64,000 nt of DNA. Origin: an uncultured Mycoplasmatota bacterium (GTDB lineage: Bacteria; Bacillota_I; Bacilli_A; RF39; UBA660). Below are positions 24,742-50,448 of the stretch, piece after piece. Position 1 is the first letter of the stretch. Each line of letters opens with the position of its first letter. Under the pieces are notes generated by a model. That model saw nothing but the letters and a program-made list of their open reading frames with translations. It was not told where the DNA came from and searched no databases. The stretch lies in assembly GCA_947305065.1 (NCBI GenBank), contig CAMZCT010000002.1:62001-126000 (forward strand), in the 5' to 3' direction. Made by a program: the position numbers and the translations under genes.

Positions 24742-24769
24742 AAAAAGCTCCGCAATGCGGAGTTTTTTA
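24741..24769. terminator. bidirectional terminator between convergent genes
   Basis: GC-rich stem GCTCCGC / GCGGAGT (24747-24753, 24757-24763), A-run and T-run either side. It serves rnj (+) and the NlpC/P60-like gene (-). Confidence 0.9.
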
Positions 24770-26128
24770 AGTAGTTAATTCTTTTACGCGTATTGCACCC
24801 CATCCAGCGTAACCGTGAAGAGTAGTCGGCCATTCACCTTTTCCACTAAATGTCCATTTGTGATTTCTATTTCTAGTTAGATAACTTCCTCCATCGTATG
24901 CAGTTATTGTACCAGTTTCTCCATCTATTTCTCCAATAAAAGCAACATGTTTCCATTCCGAACTATTCCAAGTAGCTATATTAGTATGATCTATTGGTGT
25001 ACTATAAAAATGAAGTATATCTCCTACTTTTAAATCACATAGTCTTGTTATTACTTTACCATATTTTTTAAGTTTATCCCATTCCGTACAAGATTGAAAC
25101 TCTGGTGTTCCATCTTCTCTAGTACCATTTCTAAATATTCCTGCTTTCCAATAAACCATATCAACGGTCCAGTTACAGTTTGTTGTCATATTATCCCCTT
25201 GAATTATTTTGTCAAAGTCACTTAAAGGTCCGGACAAACCATGTTCATCATAATGGGTATTTCCAGGATAGAATGAATCGCTAGTACCACCCGGATATTC
25301 AAGTGTTTGTGGTGGGTCTTTTTTTTGAGCCGCTTCCATTTCAGTATAGTAAACACATGATCCGCCCCACTTACAGTATTTTTGCCCATTTCCAGCAGGA
25401 TAATCGCGGCCATTAAAATAATCGAAACCATACATGGTCATATATCCAAAGACGTATTCTGAAGCCATTTGAAGATCTTCTATGGTTTTTCCTTCCCAGT
25501 TTTTTTCAAAATAATTTTGATATATACCTCCTAATTTTTGGGTATATTTTTTAAAACCACCAACAGAGTTTATGTAACTATGAAAGTTATTAGAATTAAA
25601 ATCATTTATATGTTTTTCAATTATTTTAAGATTATCAGAAGAAAATTGAGCTTTAACTGAACCATTTCCTCTATAAGAAAAATCTAGGGGTGGAGAACTC
25701 GATAATCCCATTTCACAGGTATTAACACTACCACTTAATTCATCTTCTTTAAATTTTTGTATTTCTTGTTGTTCTCTTTCATCATAAGCAACAATATATT
25801 TAGTACAAGTACTACTATTTGGTTCTTTTATACAGGCTTCACAAGGTTCAAATTCCGAATTGTCTTGAGTTTGAGCAAATAAGTTAACGGAAACCGTTAC
25901 AACTGTAGGTATATAAAAAACTATTATAGCTGCTGCTATTTTTTTGGCTATACCAATCATTGCTTTAGTCATTGAATCTGCTGTACCTTTAGCTACTACA
26001 GTACCAACAGTTATAGTTGAAGTTACTATTACTATCAATCCTACACTTACTTTTAATATATAAAGAAGCATTCCAACAAATTTCCAAGCTCTAATTGTAT
26101 TTTCGCATATTTCTAAAGCTAATAACAT
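24767..26128 (-). CDS. two-TM membrane protein fused to an NlpC/P60-like cysteine peptidase
   Basis: 453 residues. The N-terminal ~85 residues hold two long hydrophobic helices around a small loop (LLYILKVSVGLIVIVTSTIT and IAAAIIVFYIPTVVTVSVNLF), like VirB2/TrbC-type small membrane subunits. The C-terminal half looks like a papain-fold amidase: Cys in TTNCNWTVDMVY (about residue 318), VGDILHF, and His in WKHVAFIGEI (about residue 394). It should cut peptidoglycan or other peptides outside the membrane. It lies just after the WXG100 cassette but behind that cassette's terminator. No other type IV secretion gene is seen. Confidence 0.75.
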   Translation of the reverse strand: MLLALEICENTIRAWKFVGMLLYILKVSVGLIVIVTSTITVGTVVAKGTADSMTKAMIGIAKKIAAAIIVFYIPTVVTVSVNLFAQTQDNSEFEPCEACIKEPNSSTCTKYIVAYDEREQQEIQKFKEDELSGSVNTCEMGLSSSPPLDFSYRGNGSVKAQFSSDNLKIIEKHINDFNSNNFHSYINSVGGFKKYTQKLGGIYQNYFEKNWEGKTIEDLQMASEYVFGYMTMYGFDYFNGRDYPAGNGQKYCKWGGSCVYYTEMEAAQKKDPPQTLEYPGGTSDSFYPGNTHYDEHGLSGPLSDFDKIIQGDNMTTNCNWTVDMVYWKAGIFRNGTREDGTPEFQSCTEWDKLKKYGKVITRLCDLKVGDILHFYSTPIDHTNIATWNSSEWKHVAFIGEIDGETGTITAYDGGSYLTRNRNHKWTFSGKGEWPTTLHGYAGWGAIRVKELTT

Positions 26129-26170
26129 ATTATCACCTACGTTGTATTCATTTTATCATACGATTTCCAA

Positions 26171-26196
26171 AATAAAAAGATATCTTACGATATCTT
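26171..26196 (-). terminator. terminator of the WXG100 cassette
   Basis: AAGATATC (26177-26184), loop TTAC, GATATCTT (26189-26196), A-run to the left; the last WXG100 stop overlaps. Confidence 0.75.
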
Positions 26197-26503
26197 AACC
26201 TACAACGCCATTTACGTCGTTCTCACTAGATGCATCTGCTTGTTCATATCTTTCTAATGCTGCACTAACGTTTCGAGAGAACTCACTACATGCAGATTGA
26301 AGAGTTACAATGTCATCTTTGATTTTTGATAATACTGGTACTATGTCTGCAGCAGAATCTCCGCCCCAGGCTGCGGCACCATCTTCACCTATTTTTTGTG
26401 AATTTGTCATATAGTTATCAATAGGATCATCTAAATTTCCAGATAAAGTTACTAATGCTTCAGTTGCTTCTCTTAACGAATTATATTTTACTTTTCCATC
26501 CAT
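26195..26503 (-). CDS. WXG100-like protein (type VII secretion substrate)
   Basis: 102 residues, all helical, with the turn motif W46-G-G between two helices; the usual size of WXG100/EsxA proteins. Such proteins form helical hairpins, often heterodimers, exported by the type VII (Ess/Yuk) system. Its start overlaps the stop of the upstream WXG100-like gene (TAATG), pointing to a translationally coupled pair like EsxA/EsxB. A clear C-terminal YxxxD/E export signal is not certain; RYEQADASSEND near the end is a candidate. Confidence 0.8.
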   Translation of the reverse strand: MDGKVKYNSLREATEALVTLSGNLDDPIDNYMTNSQKIGEDGAAAWGGDSAADIVPVLSKIKDDIVTLQSACSEFSRNVSAALERYEQADASSENDVNGVVG

Positions 26504-26814
26504 TAGATTAGGTCGCCTCCTTTAACATCGTCTACATTTTGTTGCTCTGCTTCAGAATAATTGTTAGCAACTTTTTCAAGCGTTGGTCCCAATTCTTCTA
26601 ATTGTTTAATGTCTGCGTCAAGTAATGGTCCTATATTTTCCCATTTTTCTAGGAATGTAGCTGATGCTGCACCTTGCCAACTATCGTTTGAAGTAACTTG
26701 TTCAACAGCATCTACTATTTGATTATATATTGATCTTACAGTTTCACTTACGCCGCCAATATTATTTCCAACTAGTGAAAGTTCATCGCTGTCCACATTT
26801 AATGATGTGCTCAT
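26503..26814 (-). CDS. WXG100-like protein (type VII secretion substrate)
   Basis: 103 residues with central W46-Q-G and a C-terminal NYSEAEQQNVDDV, where Y-S-E-A-E fits the YxxxD/E export signal. It has an excellent ribosome site (GGAGGT) and its own promoter (26848-26875), so the pair 26814-26195 can be made independently of the upstream part of the cassette. Likely partner of the next gene. Confidence 0.85.
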   Translation of the reverse strand: MSTSLNVDSDELSLVGNNIGGVSETVRSIYNQIVDAVEQVTSNDSWQGAASATFLEKWENIGPLLDADIKQLEELGPTLEKVANNYSEAEQQNVDDVKGGDLI

Positions 26815-26847
26815 ATTCTTACCTCCATCTTTCTATATTTTTATTTT

Positions 26848-26875
26848 ATAATAATTATTTCTAATTATCAATCAA
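26848..26875 (-). promoter_or_regulatory. internal promoter for the WXG100 pair
   Basis: TTGATT (26870-26875), 16-nt spacer, TATTAT (26848-26853) on the minus strand, followed by a strong ribosome site. Confidence 0.5.
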
Positions 26876-26896
26876 TGCGTTAAGTAAGATGTCAAA

Positions 26897-27835
26897 TTAA
26901 ACATCAAATCTTTCTAAATTATAGTTATTAATTATTCTATTATATTTATAATAAACACTTTCATGAGGATTAGGAGTATAACCATCTAAGAAACCTTTAT
27001 AATGTAATAAGTTATTATCTCCTTTTAATTCTGGATGATATAAAGATAATACATTAGCATAATCTTCTATACATTCTTCTATACTATCGTAATGTCTCAT
27101 ACTTTCGTTAGTTCCAACTACGTGCGAACCATCCGCACTCCATTGAGTAACATTATTATTACCTGAAGTTCTCTTTTTAGACCATGTAGAATCTTGCATA
27201 TCAGGTGTTATTCTTCCCATATCAGTATTGATACCTAATACATTATTGAAATTTGAAAGTGATGAAGCATGTGTACTCATCCAACCGCTCTCATTAATTA
27301 TTTGAGCAATTATTAGTGATTTTTTCATACCATAAGTATTTGTATTTTTTACTATCTTACCGACTTTTTCTACCCATTCTGCTATTGCAGATGAATCGGA
27401 GTTCCAAGCTTTATCTCCTAAAGCATAGAATTCTTTAGCTTGAGTTTTACCTAAAGTACCAGGTCCTAATTGAAGATTAATAGTTCTATTTCCACCTGTT
27501 TTAATAGCAGGGACTGTTACTTTGGAAAATAAATCTGTAAAAACATAATTAAACTCTTTAGGAGCATCTAAATCTCCTGAAAAACTAGCTAGATTACTTT
27601 CTAAGTTTTTGATATCATCTAAGTAATTTTCAAACCAATTATAAGCATTCTTAGTGCCTGTATCCATTCTTTTTAGGCAAGTAGTTGCTTTATTTATTAA
27701 AGATGATATTTCTGTACCAGAATATTTATTTAACTTGCTTTCGCTAGTACTAACTGTAGAATTAATATTTGTAGAAATACTTGATAGTGTAGTACTCTTA
27801 CCATCTAACGAATCTAAATCAATAGTATATTCCAT
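26897..27835 (-). CDS. WXG-type N-terminus fused to a GH73-like glucosaminidase
   Basis: 312 residues. The N-terminal ~90 residues are Ser/Thr-rich helices typical of type VII substrates. The C-terminal ~160 residues carry the GH73 pattern: AQIINESGW with probable catalytic Glu182, FNNVLGI, and YDSIEECIEDYANVL. It would cut the glycan strand of peptidoglycan, either as a toxin or to open the wall for secretion. There is no Sec signal peptide, consistent with type VII export. It begins 1 nt after the upstream gene ends. Confidence 0.85.
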   Translation of the reverse strand: MEYTIDLDSLDGKSTTLSSISTNINSTVSTSESKLNKYSGTEISSLINKATTCLKRMDTGTKNAYNWFENYLDDIKNLESNLASFSGDLDAPKEFNYVFTDLFSKVTVPAIKTGGNRTINLQLGPGTLGKTQAKEFYALGDKAWNSDSSAIAEWVEKVGKIVKNTNTYGMKKSLIIAQIINESGWMSTHASSLSNFNNVLGINTDMGRITPDMQDSTWSKKRTSGNNNVTQWSADGSHVVGTNESMRHYDSIEECIEDYANVLSLYHPELKGDNNLLHYKGFLDGYTPNPHESVYYKYNRIINNYNLERFDV

Positions 27836-27836
27836 T

Positions 27837-28250
27837 TTATATCATCCCCTTAACTTTTCCTTCATATGTATTCATATTAGTTTCTGCAATAGATAAGTCA
27901 CTCTGTAAAGCAGATATTGTCCCAGCGTTTTCTGGAGTGTTTGGTGTGTTTGCCAAGGAACTCTTAATATTAAGAGCTTGTTGTTCAGCTTCCTTATATG
28001 AGCTAATATAACCAGCAACGGTTATTAAATTGTTTATACTAGTGGTTATATCAGTTAATACTACCCCACTTATTTTACTTAGTCCTTCTTTTAAAGTACT
28101 CTTAGCACCACATTTCCAAATACTATCACTTAAACTATTATTTAAATCATTTATAGATTTTCCGCTTCTAGAAATGTTTTCTAAAATTGCTGCAGCATCA
28201 CTTGATAAAGTGGCTGGATCTATGTTTTTATATAAACCATAATTTGCCAT
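27837..28250 (-). CDS. WXG100-like helical protein
   Basis: 137 residues, helical, with W45-K-C-G at the expected turn and YKEAEQQAL near residue 85, an YxxxE-type signal. It is longer than a standard WXG100 by a C-terminal coiled segment. Its ATG overlaps the stop of the upstream gene (TAATG). It could be the chaperone or partner of the GH73 fusion just downstream, as small helical partners accompany LXG effectors; this is inference from position. Confidence 0.72.
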   Translation of the reverse strand: MANYGLYKNIDPATLSSDAAAILENISRSGKSINDLNNSLSDSIWKCGAKSTLKEGLSKISGVVLTDITTSINNLITVAGYISSYKEAEQQALNIKSSLANTPNTPENAGTISALQSDLSIAETNMNTYEGKVKGMI

Positions 28251-29314
28251 TATACTACCACCGCCTCGTTATCTAAGATAGTTCCTATGTTGGTTATTGA
28301 ATCTACTGGACTACTGCTATCCCATTCTAAATCCCAAGTTTTAGTTTTGGGATTACCATTGTCTAAATAACATTGTCTTTCAACTTCCCACTCTAATATA
28401 TTAATTTGATCATTTCCTAATTCATGTCCCCATTCAGATCCGGCATCTTGTCCTTTAGAGTCTGCTATAATACAAGGAAGAACTGTTCCATCTTTTAATT
28501 TAACATCTATTTTATCTCCAGGTATTCCAAATTTAGGAGTAACAGCTACGAGATATCTTTCTTTGCCATCTACTTTGATAACAGCTATTCCATTTTTGAA
28601 TTTTGAACCTTGTAATTTCCAAATATCAGAAACACTTCTTTGATTAGTTCCGGCTGCCCATACCATTTCTTTTCCAGATTTTATCCAATAATCATAGCCA
28701 GTAACTGTATATGGACCTTGTTTAATAGTAGAAGGTACTTTAATCTCAGTGCCTGGAGTAATTGGTGATTTTGAAAATAATAAACCAGAAGTAACCGTGC
28801 TACTTACTGCACCAGCACCTGTAGAATAACTTGTATTTACGTAATATCCTCCAAAGTTATTACCTCCAGTGTTATTACCTCCAGTATTATTACCTCCTGT
28901 ATTATTTCTTCCTTCATCAATTGATGGTATATCTACTTTTTCTGGTTGTTTTAAACGACCGTCTAAATTAATATCTGGCAATGAGTTTGGATTTATACTA
29001 TCTATATAAGCTTGACCTCCTGCTAAATCGATTAAAGTATTAACATTATTATTGCCAAGTATTTCGTAACCATCTGAACAACTGGCAAGGAATAATACCG
29101 ACATGGCAAGTTGATGTTGAGCATCAGGTAGTTTATTTGATAAATTCTGTAATTTATCACGATAATTACTTGCAGCATCTCCACTCCAATTTGGATCAGA
29201 TATTTTTCCTATTAATCCATCTATATTACCATTAGTTGTCTTCATATTTGCTGATATGCTTTGAAGATTACTACAAGAACTTTTAATATCTTCAAATTTT
29301 ATTGATTGAGCCAT
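28250..29314 (-). CDS. WXG100 domain fused to a barrel-like C-terminal domain
   Basis: 354 residues. The N-terminal ~95 residues are a WXG100-like hairpin with W43-S-G. A linker contains a repeated GGNNT motif (about residues 138-156). The C-terminal ~190 residues are beta-rich with YLVAVTPKFGIPGDKIDV, LPCIIADSKG and SEWGHE. That pattern resembles small barrel domains seen in Firmicute phage and wall hydrolases (3D or double-psi-barrel-like), with possible catalytic Asp/His/Glu. No Sec signal. Probable secreted wall-active or surface effector. Confidence 0.75.
   Translation of the reverse strand: MAQSIKFEDIKSSCSNLQSISANMKTTNGNIDGLIGKISDPNWSGDAASNYRDKLQNLSNKLPDAQHQLAMSVLFLASCSDGYEILGNNNVNTLIDLAGGQAYIDSINPNSLPDINLDGRLKQPEKVDIPSIDEGRNNTGGNNTGGNNTGGNNFGGYYVNTSYSTGAGAVSSTVTSGLLFSKSPITPGTEIKVPSTIKQGPYTVTGYDYWIKSGKEMVWAAGTNQRSVSDIWKLQGSKFKNGIAVIKVDGKERYLVAVTPKFGIPGDKIDVKLKDGTVLPCIIADSKGQDAGSEWGHELGNDQINILEWEVERQCYLDNGNPKTKTWDLEWDSSSPVDSITNIGTILDNEAVVV
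28856..28914. repeat. 15-nt tandem repeat encoding GGNNT
   Basis: Three to four imperfect copies of the unit TTATTACCTCCAGTG (plus-strand reading), in frame with the linker of the WXG100 fusion protein. Such repeats can change copy number by slippage without breaking the frame. Confidence 0.75.
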
Positions 29315-29316
29315 TA

Positions 29317-29613
29317 TTACACCTCGATTTTCGTACTCTGGTATTTGTTATCCATTTTTTCATATTCACTGAATACTTTACCTAGGTATTCAGCATAGGA
29401 ATCAACACAACTATTGTATTCTTCTAATAAGTAAGAATAGTCATCTTTCATCTTAGCTAAATACTTAGTAGCATCAGCACCTTCCCATGAAGTACTTATT
29501 TGATCTAATTCAGTACCTAAGTTCTTTACATAACTGCCAATACTTTCTTTTTCCATTACTAATTCACTAGCTAATCTTGATAAAGCTTCACCAGATACAA
29601 CTATTTTTGTCAT
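29317..29613 (-). CDS. WXG100 family protein, first gene of the cassette
   Basis: 98 residues from ATG 29613 (GGTGGAG upstream). Classic WXG100: two helices with W43-E-G and a C-terminal YAEYLGKVFSEYEK with YxxxE signals. It leads a run of six genes with 0-3 nt gaps or overlaps for the first four. The promoter has an extended -10 (29641-29649). It probably forms the dimer that carries the fused effectors to the type VII machine. Confidence 0.88.
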   Translation of the reverse strand: MTKIVVSGEALSRLASELVMEKESIGSYVKNLGTELDQISTSWEGADATKYLAKMKDDYSYLLEEYNSCVDSYAEYLGKVFSEYEKMDNKYQSTKIEV

Positions 29614-29640
29614 TTTACACTCCACCATTCTTCATAAATT

Positions 29641-29649
29641 ATTATAACA
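29641..29649 (-). promoter_or_regulatory. extended -10 promoter of the WXG100 cassette
   Basis: TGT-TATAAT on the minus strand (29641-29649), between the terminator of the upstream ncRNA and the first WXG100 gene. The -35 is poor. Confidence 0.55.
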
Positions 29650-29682: not shown

Positions 29683-29718
29683 AAAAAAAGTATGTTGTTC
29701 TGTCTAACAACATACTTT
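29683..29718 (-). terminator. terminator of ncRNA copy A
   Basis: 12-bp perfect stem AAAGTATGTTGT / ACAACATACTTT on the minus strand, loop TAGACAGA, then a U-run. The loop is complementary to the CTGTC loop upstream in the same RNA. Confidence 0.9.
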
Positions 29719-29994
29719 CTCGTGACTTAAAAAATGTAAACATTTAAATTGGACAGAATTTAAACATCTCTTACCAATTAGTCACATATACGTGCAGCCT
29801 GATAGTAAGGTGAGAAATGAATCTCCGAATGTAATACAAAGCAAAACTTTATACTACATTATAAATAGATGATATAAAAAGAAAATAATAAGTATTAATT
29901 AGAGTCCAAGGACTCATAAATTATTTCGACTAAAAATAATTTATTTGATAATCAATACAAAAATTTACAATTTATATCTGTAATACTATCAAGT
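29684..29994 (-). ncRNA. structured non-coding RNA, copy A (~310 nt)
   Basis: A free-standing RNA gene with consensus promoter (30001-30029) and strong terminator (29687-29718). No open frame fits. Its first bases (29984-29993) pair over 10 bp with 29798-29807, closing the molecule. The core ACGTATATGTGAC (29781-29793) follows, and GTGAC pairs with GTCAC (29722-29726). Inside is a hairpin with loop CTGTCC (29743-29764); near the 5' half is a CUUG-tetraloop hairpin (29902-29915). All these parts recur in copy B at 43003-43341. I cannot match it to tmRNA, RNase P, 6S or SRP RNA. Function unknown. Confidence 0.8.
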
Positions 29995-30000
29995 AAGTTA

Positions 30001-30029
30001 ATTATAATATACTTGTTTTTATAATTCAA
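30001..30029 (-). promoter_or_regulatory. promoter of ncRNA copy A
   Basis: TTGAAT (30024-30029), 17-nt spacer, TATAAT (30001-30006). The predicted start (~29994) coincides with the first base of the closing stem. Confidence 0.85.
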
Positions 30030-40029: not shown

Positions 40030-40563
40030 TTATATTTTATATATCCTTTTCTTATTAATTATGACAATAGTAACTACTATTATAGATAGTATTCCTATTC
40101 CTAAGCCTATAAATGTACCAGTTTCAGGATTATCTATTGTAGAATAATCTTTTTCTTCTACTGGATCTAAAGAATCTTTTTTACTATCAACATCTATTAT
40201 ATCCTCTGGTTGGTTATTTTCTTGATTCTCTACTAAAACTGGCTCAAATGACATTACTACACCATCATAATTTCCGTTGTTACCAATGTTACCATATGGT
40301 GCATCAAACGAAGCAGCTACGTATAGTTTATTATTTACTGGGTTTATTTTAGATTCATTGAATAAAACGTGACCACCATTATTAATTTTATATTCATATT
40401 TTGCTAATAAGTTTAAATTAAAATCAAAATAATAAATATTGGAACTAGTTGTTGCTACCATTTCTATAACGGCAATTTTATCTTCTATAACATGAGTAGA
40501 ATAAAGAATCGTAGTACCACGTTCTTTTTCTTTTAGTAATAGTTCATTAAAAGTATTTTGCAT
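40030..40563 (-). CDS. chimeric ORF: ABC ATPase scrap joined to an NPETG surface-protein tail
   Basis: 177 residues from an internal ATG. Residues 1-27 (FNELLLKEKERGTTILYSTHVIED) are the end of an ABC ATPase, continuing the pseudogene upstream. From about residue 28 the sequence becomes an extracytoplasmic beta-propeller-like segment (YYFDFNLNLLAKYEYKI), an acidic linker, then DNPETG, a hydrophobic helix and a basic tail, a sortase-type anchor. It has no signal peptide, so the tail cannot be exported as it stands. Probably a deletion or recombination joint rather than a working gene. Confidence 0.55.
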   Translation of the reverse strand: MQNTFNELLLKEKERGTTILYSTHVIEDKIAVIEMVATTSSNIYYFDFNLNLLAKYEYKINNGGHVLFNESKINPVNNKLYVAASFDAPYGNIGNNGNYDGVVMSFEPVLVENQENNQPEDIIDVDSKKDSLDPVEEKDYSTIDNPETGTFIGLGIGILSIIVVTIVIINKKRIYKI

Positions 40564-41052
40564 AACAGAATCTAAACCACTAGTTGGTTCATCTAATATT
40601 AGAAGTTTAGGTTCGTGGATTAAATCAAGAACAATGCCTACTTTTTTTAGATTACCTAAAGATAGATCTTCTATTTTTTTATTCTCATCTATTTTAAAAA
40701 GTTTTACTAATTATTTCTTTTTTTAGCGGTATTCTTTTTATAGAATTGTTCATGATAGTCTAACATTTGTTTAACAGTAAAATCGTTATATAAGTGAATT
40801 TCACTAGGTAGGTAGCCAATAATTGCTTTAGTTTCTAAATCATCTTTAGTAAACTCTTTACCACTTATTAGAATAGTACCACTTGTTTTATTAATGATAT
40901 TCATTACGGAATGAATAGTAGTAGATTTACCAGCGCCATTAGGCCCAATAAAACCAAATATTTCTCCTTCTTCTAAAGAAAAGATACATCTTCTACACCC
41001 CGTATTTTTCCATAGTACTTTTTAAGTTTTTTACCTCTAATATAGTTTTGAT
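40480..41052 (-). pseudogene. decayed ABC transporter ATP-binding protein
   Basis: Read from 41052: RBS GGTGAT is followed by ATC where an ATG is expected. Then LEVKNLKKYYG, a frameshift near 40985, Walker A GFIGPNGAGKSTTIHSV, the Q-loop region (IIGYLPSEIHLYNDF), more shifts in A-runs around 40690-40720, LSLGNLKKVGIVLDL (signature), Walker B LLILDEPTSGLD and STHVIED. It thus has a lost start and at least three frame breaks. The open piece 40707-40904 is only a fragment of it. The partner permease is not seen nearby. Confidence 0.8.
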
Positions 41053-42993: not shown

Positions 42994-43002
42994 TTTATTA
43001 CA

Positions 43003-43037
43003 CAAAAAAATATGTTGTTCTGTCCACAACATACTTT
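43003..43037 (-). terminator. terminator of ncRNA copy B
   Basis: Minus strand AAAGTATGTTGT / ACAACATATTTT stem (one G-U), loop GGACAGA, U-run. Confidence 0.9.
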
Positions 43038-43341
43038 TTTTGTGACTCACTGTAAATCATATAATATTGACAGATACTATATAACTTCTTACCTATTTGT
43101 CACATATACGTACTACTTAATAGTTTGACAAGATAAACATTAAAGATAAACTTTAATAAAGAGTTTTATAGGAAAATTGACAACGAATCATCAACCAAGA
43201 AATATCTAAAATACTTCTTATATAAAACTCAAAGTTATAAGATAAATGAAACTTTAAAAATATATCCAAGGATATAAATTACTCTTAAGACAAGTCTTAA
43301 AAGGGAAGAAACACATACCAAATAACAACTTTCTATTAAGT
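43003..43341 (-). ncRNA. structured non-coding RNA, copy B (~340 nt)
   Basis: Second copy of the RNA at 29684-29994. Closing stem: 43333-43342 with 43114-43123, perfect 10 bp, with compensatory changes relative to copy A. Core ACGTATATGTGAC at 43099-43111, GTCAC partner at 43042-43046, hairpin with loop CTGTCA at 43059-43082, and CUUG-tetraloop hairpin at 43262-43275. The core and terminator are strongly conserved between copies, but most other stretches differ, as expected for an RNA held by structure. Own promoter and terminator. Function unknown. Confidence 0.8.
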
Positions 43342-43347
43342 ATCTTT

Positions 43348-43376
43348 AGTATACTATTAATCATATATAGTGTCAA
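43348..43376 (-). promoter_or_regulatory. promoter of ncRNA copy B
   Basis: TTGACA (43371-43376), 17-nt spacer, TATACT (43348-43353). Predicted start ~43341, the first base of the closing stem within one nucleotide. Confidence 0.85.
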
Positions 43377-48237: not shown

Positions 48238-50448
48238 TTATATATTATTATTTTCTTCAAGTATTTTATTCATAAGATTTGTCTTACGCATTGTTGAATA
48301 ATCATTGTTTATGGCGGTTAGAAAAGCTTCTTGTTCACCAATTATTACTAAGCTTTTTTTAGCTCTTGAAACACCTGTATAAATAAGTTTATTATATAAC
48401 ATTTTATAATAAGCTTTAGATATAGGCATTATTACATGAGAGAATTCAGAACCCTGACTCTTATGAATGGTAATCGCATAAGCGTGTTTAATATTAATTA
48501 AATCTTCTCTAGTATAGATTACTTTATTACCATCAAAATCAATGGTTAAATAGTCTTTTTTAGTTGGAGTTTGAATAGTCGTAATGCTTTTAATATAACC
48601 AATATCACCATTAAATACGTTATTATCAGGATCATTAACAAGTTGTAAAACTTTATCTTCTTCTCTATATATAATATCCCCATATTTTATTTCTTTTTTT
48701 TCATCTGAAGGAGGATTAAAAACTTTTTGTAATAGAATGTTTAAATTATCTATCCCATTTTCTCCTTTATACATTGGTGCTAAAACTTGAATATCGTCTT
48801 CTGTCAAACCTTTTTCGCTACTCATTACACATATTTTCTTAATCATCTCTTTGATACTTGGTCCAGAAGCGTTTAAGAAGTTATAATCATCCTTTTGTTC
48901 CATGAAGTCTGGATTTAGACTTTTACTTTTAATTTCTTTCGCAAGTATAGGTATATATGAATTTTCACTTTGACGATAGATATGTTCAAGAGGAATATGA
49001 GCAAATAAATTAGTGTTAATAATATCATTTAAAATCATACCCGGCCCTACTGAAGGAAGTTGATTTGTGTCTCCTACTAATATTAATTTTATATTGTGAT
49101 TGATACCTTGCAATAAAGAATGGAATAAATAGGTATCTATCATAGAAGTTTCATCAACTATTACTAATTTATGATAATTCTTATTAAATTCATTAATTTG
49201 AAATTCATCTGTCTCTCTATTCCATTTTAAATAGCGATGAATAGTTGAAGCAGGAAGTCCAGTCGATTCGCTCATCTTCTTAGCAGCTCGTCCAGTTGGA
49301 GCTAATAAAGCTATTTTATTTAAGGCATCTTTAGGATTGATATTATTTAATCTAATATATAGTTGAACAATAGCATTTATAATTGTTGTTTTGCCGGTTC
49401 CTGGACCACCAGTAATGATACTTACTCTGTTTTCTAGTGATTCTCTAATTGCATTCTTTTGTTCTTTATTATATTTAACACCTTTTTCTGCTTCTAAATT
49501 AATTATTAAGTCATCAAAATCATTTATTACTTCTTTATTATACTTATTTATTAATAAAAGATTATTAGCTATCATTTCTTCATAGATATAATACTCTTTT
49601 AAAAAGTACTTATCTACATCTGCAAGAATTATCTCTTCTTCTAAGATTAGTTCGTTTAGATAAGTTGAAAACTCATCTTCTTCAATAAATATTTTGAATT
49701 CATTTCTGATAAAAGCAAATAATTCTTGTTTAGAACAGTAAGTATCTCCGTTTTTCATGCCTAACCTTTTAAAGGATTCTATAAGACAAGCTTTTACTCT
49801 TTCTTTAGCATCAGCAGCTTTCATACAAAGAAATACTTTATCTAATTTGTTGAAATCGATTATATCAATTAGTGAATATATTTTTTCTTCAACTATACTT
49901 AATGTATTCTCTCCGTATTTATTAATGATTGTTAAGCCTTCATTTATTGTAAAACCTAGTTTTTGTAAAGAAATTATTATTTCATCAGTACTTTGATATC
50001 TATTAATTGAGTCATATATTCTAAGAGCTTTTTTCTCAGAAATACCTGGGACTTGTAGTAAAACATTGGCATCTTCTTTAATTAGTTTTATGGCATCATC
50101 ACCTAAGGTATTAACAATGTTTTCAGCAGTTTTTTCTCCACAACCTTTTATTAAAGGACTAGATAGAAAAGAAATAACTGCATCTTTTCCTTTAGGTTCT
50201 TCTTTTTCATATGATGTCACTTGATATTGCTTACCATAACGGGCATTATCAATGTATTTACCATATAATATGTAATAATCTTCCCCATTAACTTCTGGGA
50301 AGTAACCAGTAAAAGTAATTGTTTTGTTAACTAGTTCTTCTAGTTCTTCAGTTGCTTCTTTAACGCGAAAAAGACCAACTTTATATCCGTTGTCACCTTC
50401 ATAAATCATCTGTTTAAATTTACCGCGTATATACTCCACTTTTACCAC
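48238..50448 (-). CDS. recD2: RecD2-type DNA helicase
   Basis: 736 residues, normal for RecD2. The N-terminal region carries helix-hairpin-helix motifs (GCGEKTAENIV, VPGISEKKALRIY). Superfamily 1 motifs follow: GGPGTGKTTIINA, LLAPTGRAAKKM, DETSMID, LVGDTNQLPSVGPG and the late HAYAITIHKSQGSEF. RecD2 is a 5'-3' helicase linked to repair and fork stability. Single gene, no RecB or RecC partner nearby, as usual for RecD2. Confidence 0.95.
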   Translation of the reverse strand: MVKVEYIRGKFKQMIYEGDNGYKVGLFRVKEATEELEELVNKTITFTGYFPEVNGEDYYILYGKYIDNARYGKQYQVTSYEKEEPKGKDAVISFLSSPLIKGCGEKTAENIVNTLGDDAIKLIKEDANVLLQVPGISEKKALRIYDSINRYQSTDEIIISLQKLGFTINEGLTIINKYGENTLSIVEEKIYSLIDIIDFNKLDKVFLCMKAADAKERVKACLIESFKRLGMKNGDTYCSKQELFAFIRNEFKIFIEEDEFSTYLNELILEEEIILADVDKYFLKEYYIYEEMIANNLLLINKYNKEVINDFDDLIINLEAEKGVKYNKEQKNAIRESLENRVSIITGGPGTGKTTIINAIVQLYIRLNNINPKDALNKIALLAPTGRAAKKMSESTGLPASTIHRYLKWNRETDEFQINEFNKNYHKLVIVDETSMIDTYLFHSLLQGINHNIKLILVGDTNQLPSVGPGMILNDIINTNLFAHIPLEHIYRQSENSYIPILAKEIKSKSLNPDFMEQKDDYNFLNASGPSIKEMIKKICVMSSEKGLTEDDIQVLAPMYKGENGIDNLNILLQKVFNPPSDEKKEIKYGDIIYREEDKVLQLVNDPDNNVFNGDIGYIKSITTIQTPTKKDYLTIDFDGNKVIYTREDLINIKHAYAITIHKSQGSEFSHVIMPISKAYYKMLYNKLIYTGVSRAKKSLVIIGEQEAFLTAINNDYSTMRKTNLMNKILEENNNI

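Follow-up and report, generated by a model that had tools for sequence, protein, structure and literature searches.

The window analysed here, a stretch of 64,000 nt from an AT-rich genome of 1.67 Mb, very probably carries two paralogues of a stand-alone, pseudoknotted and probably trans-acting RNA, in which the loop of the terminator hairpin (P6) docks onto the loop of an inner hairpin (P5). Both copies, A and B, belong to a family of stand-alone RNAs in bacteria that has apparently not been described before, and the comparative evidence supports the helices, the kissing pair (K) between the two loops and the stand-alone gene structure. We also lean, if only slightly, towards a fuller reading, an undescribed family of homodimeric RNAs whose terminator would kiss the inner loop and whose dimer palindrome would be free in sequence and kept self-complementary.

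Re-examination of the sequence placed the kissing-loop elements where the first-pass annotation had put them; they lie on the minus strand, as do all parts of both copies and the promoters given here. Copy A is a predicted RNA of ∼310 nt (29683..29995, its 5' end placed from the -10 box), preceded by the promoter-like match TTGAAT-17-TATAAT (30001..30029). Its P1 helix, which encloses the 5' domain, pairs CTTGATAGTA (29984..29993) with TACTATCAGG (29798..29807), and P2, which shows covariation in the family, pairs CTCACCTTA (29806..29814) with GGTAAGAG (29768..29775). The P3 palindrome CACGTATATGTG (29783..29794) is self-complementary with G.U pairs and overlaps by 3 nt with P4, formed by GTGAC (29781..29785) and GTCAC (29722..29726). 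The inner hairpin P5, TTTAAATT-CTGTCC-AATTTAAA (29743..29764), presents the K1 loop CTGTCC at 29751-29756, and the terminator hairpin P6 with its U tract (29683..29715) has the loop TAGACAGA (29699-29706; UAGACAGA as RNA), which contains the K2 strand AGACAG (29700-29705).

Copy B, with both of its loops inside 42998-43124, is a predicted RNA of ∼340 nt (43003..43342) behind the promoter TTGACA-17-TATACT (43348..43376). Its P1 strands are TACTTAATAG (43333..43342, 5' strand) and CTATTAAGTA (43114..43123, 3' strand), its P3 palindrome is TACGTATATGTG with G.U pairs (43101..43112), and P4 consists of GTGAC (43099..43103, 5' strand) and GTCAC (43042-43046, 3' strand). P5 (43059..43082) carries the K1 loop CTGTCA (43068-43073), and P6 (43003..43037) the loop GGACAGA (43019-43025) with the K2 strand GGACAG (43020-43025). 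The two copies match at 77% over 133 nt by blastn. The complementarity CUGUC/GACAG (5 bp) is kept in each of them while their P5 stems differ, as had been observed before. A single 5-nt loop-loop match is weak evidence when taken alone.

Conservation extends from the promoter -10 box to the terminator in four close relatives within the genus. A first covariance model, restricted to the last 135 nt and based on copies A and B together with four relatives, identified five copies in the genome of the window (A, B, two in tandem at another site of this contig and a fifth on a different one) and matched 11 of the 15 genomes of the genus at E-values up to 1. With 57 members as input, a second model gave matches in 41 of 386 genomes, from about 20 of 150 genera, all sampled from one family of uncultured, small and AT-rich Firmicutes; this prevalence is a lower bound owing to the strict filters of the family-wide searches. 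Among 376 genomes sampled across the class, every match to the second model fell within this same family. The genomes are all draft or metagenome-derived, and the model E-values are rough. One row of alignment A5 (L080:1468-1539) was spurious; it is counted in the tool statistics and excluded from our own counts, which rest on the remaining 71 members. The RNA is present in one to five copies per genome where it occurs, and the length from P1 to the end ranges from 226 to 452 nt (median 323). A plain DNA search outside the genus gave only short matches that we judged to be chance, a scan of the genome contigs gave a single relative only, and the exact core pattern had no match in viral contigs. 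Two matches to a looser pattern in viral contigs were discarded, both lying within a coding frame and being unmatched by the model.

Rfam 15 gave no relevant match for the window or for 20 loci (one tRNA only), and the gathering threshold was not reached for any of its families, including OLE, ROOL, GOLLD, raiA and HEARO. Relaxed Rfam searches with copy A, L053 and L062 produced chance-level matches only, and the RNA is not described in the literature that we searched, with incomplete coverage. 6S RNA (RF00013) was rejected as an identity: it gave no match, and separate 6S-like loci are present in 14 of the 15 genomes of the genus, 7 of them above the cut-off. The 6S-like RNA of the window's own genome (G000:C7:18275-18469) scores 35.8 bits, below the family cut-off, and clear 6S matches were seen in seven other genomes of the genus.

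The gene structure is that expected of a stand-alone non-coding RNA, with a predicted promoter and terminator of its own and a covarying conserved structure. A sigma-70-like promoter match to a loose pattern lies just upstream of P1 in 70 of the 71 members, and nearly all end in a terminator-like hairpin and U tract, the hairpin being clear in all but a few. Among close relatives, copy A is always located downstream of the same small gene and copy B downstream of alaS; the gene that follows either copy changes despite this upstream synteny. From locus to locus the downstream genes bear no relation to one another, and nine members (L027, L053, L054, L058, L059, L063, L073, L080 and L082) face a convergent next gene. 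Moreover, the downstream gene has a -10 box of its own in the window and in close relatives. After copy A, such a box lies at 29641..29646 in the context TGTTATAAT, ahead of a WXG100-like gene (29317-29628), and similar TATGATAAAAT boxes are present in relatives. A coding function of the 5' domain was rejected, as the copies have no clearly shared ORF there.

The first-pass annotation had suggested that the loop-loop contact could make termination or 3'-end stability depend on folding or ligand. Of this reading the contact stands, on the paired changes described below, and ligand-dependent termination in a 5' leader does not. The own promoter, the varied or convergent neighbours, the downstream -10 boxes and the want of a clearly shared ORF together argue against a leader, as does a terminator-like end nearly everywhere; the members are not found on the same strand upstream of a functionally coherent set of genes, as expected of a riboswitch or attenuator. 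A cis-acting leader whose loop contact controls termination before secretion or lipoprotein genes would agree with the position of both window copies, which end ∼55-65 nt upstream of an ORF on the same strand. Against the neighbourhoods, -10 boxes and terminators just described we regard it as very improbable, and an unsystematic look did not notice any antiterminator pairing. Beside copy A, the region 24767-29628 encodes WXG100-like small proteins and larger secreted-looking proteins and is reminiscent of a type VII secretion operon. Close relatives have no WXG100-like genes in the interval from the RNA to the final gene of this cluster.

The consensus of K is CUGUCA in the P5 loop and UGACAG in the terminator loop. 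K is retained in 66 of the 71 members, 62 of them recognized by script and four (L032, L033, L098 and L100) after correction by eye of hairpin-finder errors, the partner being present in their terminator loops. The fully automatic finder overlooked ∼20 loops, so a pattern-anchored version was added. The 62 members with a loop match of at least 5 nt by script compare with a mean of 45 and a maximum of 52 in 2000 permutations. Most members have an unchanged core CUGUC/GACAG, as would be expected if each loop were conserved on its own, as a protein site or to pair with some other RNA, and the two matched only by coincidence. However, paired changes come from about seven genera: CUAUCA/UGAUAG (L065, L090), AUGUCGA/UCGACAU (L071), UAGUC/GACUA (L099), CUGAC/GUCAG (L089), CUGACA/UGUCAG (L074, L097 and L100-L103), UUGUCA/UGACAA (L096) and UGUCAG/CUGACA (L093). 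Because these changes alter different pairs, parsimony without a genome tree counts at least five separate events. The check proposed in the first-pass annotation, loop covariation in further homologues, thus comes out in favour of the contact: both loops change together in several genera.

In alignment A5, 94.3% of the K cells are paired, against 24-44% in slid controls; double changes occur in 13 cells, at four of the six pairs, and one-sided changes in none. Twenty rows lack the sixth pair. None of 500 shuffles, which retain relatedness, reached the covariation score of K, and neither K nor P1, P2 and P3 were part of the models behind the alignment. A change of one loop only, which the first-pass annotation had named as a refuting result, is absent in nearly all members. 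One exception is L073, which retains 4 bp of K; the four others form a single subtype (D2), the second RNA of a tandem pair in four genomes. Their terminator loop is without GACAG, and UGACA is found instead in the linker that follows P5 on its 3' side (P5-P4 linker), in exactly these four of the 71 members. The K partner of D2 thus looks as if it had been relocated to the linker, which we count as one evolutionary event. With double changes at several positions, no one-sided change and a partner that appears to have moved, separate conservation of the loops is extremely unlikely, and a loop-loop contact is strongly supported by the paired changes in other genera. One tandem pair of this type (L039) lies outside the window at G000:C2:48581-48713 and 49003-49135, its second RNA showing the D2 partner swap; three further genomes of the genus show such a pair as well.

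The comparative data would be alike for K within one molecule or between molecules. Intermolecular kissing loops occur in the ROOL and GOLLD cages (PMC12286853), and the P3 palindrome points to oligomers here, so that a real K pair joining two RNA molecules deserves consideration. We nevertheless find it fairly unlikely, since in D2 only ∼20 nt of the same strand separate the partner from the P5 loop, which suits intramolecular pairing. The contact with the terminator is most likely architectural.

The strands of the remaining helices follow the order P1a, P2a, P1b, P3, P4a, P2b, P5, P4b, P6, and P1/P2 and P2/P4 are therefore pseudoknots; the predicted fold is a pseudoknot chain plus the kissing pair. 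Covariation is seen in P1, P2, P4, P5 and P6. Taken together, P2, P4, P5, P6 and K are 90.3% paired, against 70.6% in shuffled and 32-45% in slid controls, where the P4-P6 counts lean on the covariance model and the shuffles keep relatedness. At the eighth position of P1, the pair is C-G in 49 members, G-C in 12, U-A in 7 and A-U in 2, and whole strands vary together, as in CAGUUAAUAG/CUAUUAACUG and UGUCUAAUAG/CUAUUAGAUA.

Just 3' of P1b, the family has a self-complementary stretch of 10-14 nt, P3, with variants that include ATGTACGTACAT, ATGTAATTACAT, ATACCGGTAT, ATTCCGGAAT, GTATGCGCATAC and ATAGTATACTAT. A palindrome of at least 10 nt is present in 42 of the 71 members with Watson-Crick pairs only (shuffle mean 0.85, maximum 5) and in 65 when G.U is allowed (shuffle mean 11.7, maximum 21), with ten different central tetramers. 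When the best hairpin with a 4-nt loop was chosen blind to the loop, 45 of 70 loops were self-complementary, compared with 8% of background hairpins. The predicted energy of isolated P3 is ∼0 for the hairpin and -10 to -19 kcal/mol for the duplex. Neighbouring bases at the centre are unable to pair with each other in a single chain, so that the covariation there argues for intermolecular pairing. Palindromes of 10-14 bp in DNA are typical operators, and P3 could thus be bound as DNA by a repressor dimer instead of forming an RNA contact. We consider this unlikely, given that P3 lies ∼200 nt downstream of the promoter and that its sequence differs among genera, and among the paralogues of a single genome, with palindromy retained. 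Pairing between RNAs agrees with a precedent, as loops switching between palindromes were taken as evidence of intermolecular contacts in OLE and GOLLD (PMC12286853), and P3 shows the same behaviour as these homo-oligomeric ornate RNAs. The P3 palindrome therefore suggests pairing of two molecules into a homodimer. This case rests on the family and is less certain for copies A and B, because their P3 contains G.U pairs and overlaps P4.

The family is of a known kind, the structured stand-alone bacterial RNA, in an unusual arrangement. A self-complementary segment also characterizes the retroviral dimer initiation hairpin, which can seed kissing or extended duplexes; that RNA is unrelated, whereas the palindrome described here varies widely and is directly followed by a pseudoknot strand. 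Pseudoknots and kissing loops also occur in OLE, ROOL and GOLLD, which are likewise large, structured and stand-alone RNAs of bacteria; palindrome-switching loops are shared with OLE and GOLLD (PMC12286853). In contrast to these three, the present family is without an Rfam match, is shorter (226-452 nt), has another helix order and makes the terminator hairpin itself part of the tertiary fold, and its oligomer is a predicted one. The raiA motif RNA is also a stand-alone structured RNA of Firmicutes and comparable in length (205 nt; PMC12286853). Cryo-EM showed raiA to be a monomer (PMC12286853), whereas the new family has a self-complementary segment and no Rfam match. Riboswitches with kissing loops or terminator-embedded aptamers, such as the thiS motif (PMC6478431), resemble it in their loop-loop or terminator-based tertiary contacts. 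Unlike them, it has no fixed class of downstream gene and often a convergent neighbour, and the downstream gene has its own promoter.

In the mechanism that we propose, transcription would start at the sigma-70 promoter a few bases before P1, and P1 would join the 5' end to the 3' third of the molecule, enclosing a variable 5' domain. The 3' third would fold as the pseudoknot chain, and the intrinsic terminator P6, formed last, would dock its loop onto that of P5, becoming a tertiary part of the fold with the 3' end tucked in and probably protected. Two such molecules may then be joined through P3 into a homodimer. The RNA may act as an architectural or protein-binding RNA, as is thought for other ornate bacterial RNAs, rather than as a cis switch; a scaffold or protein-binding role is our best guess, with low confidence. 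If correct, this would add a class of structured RNA with strong comparative support, in which a terminator hairpin serves beyond its stop signal as part of a tertiary fold. RNA self-association, which the structures of OLE, ROOL and GOLLD have recently raised as a question, would also gain a sequence signature of unusual clarity.

Elsewhere in the window, between the two copies, short ORFs at 40030-40904 resemble remnants of an ABC transporter ATPase, one of them fused to another reading, which suggests a decayed gene.
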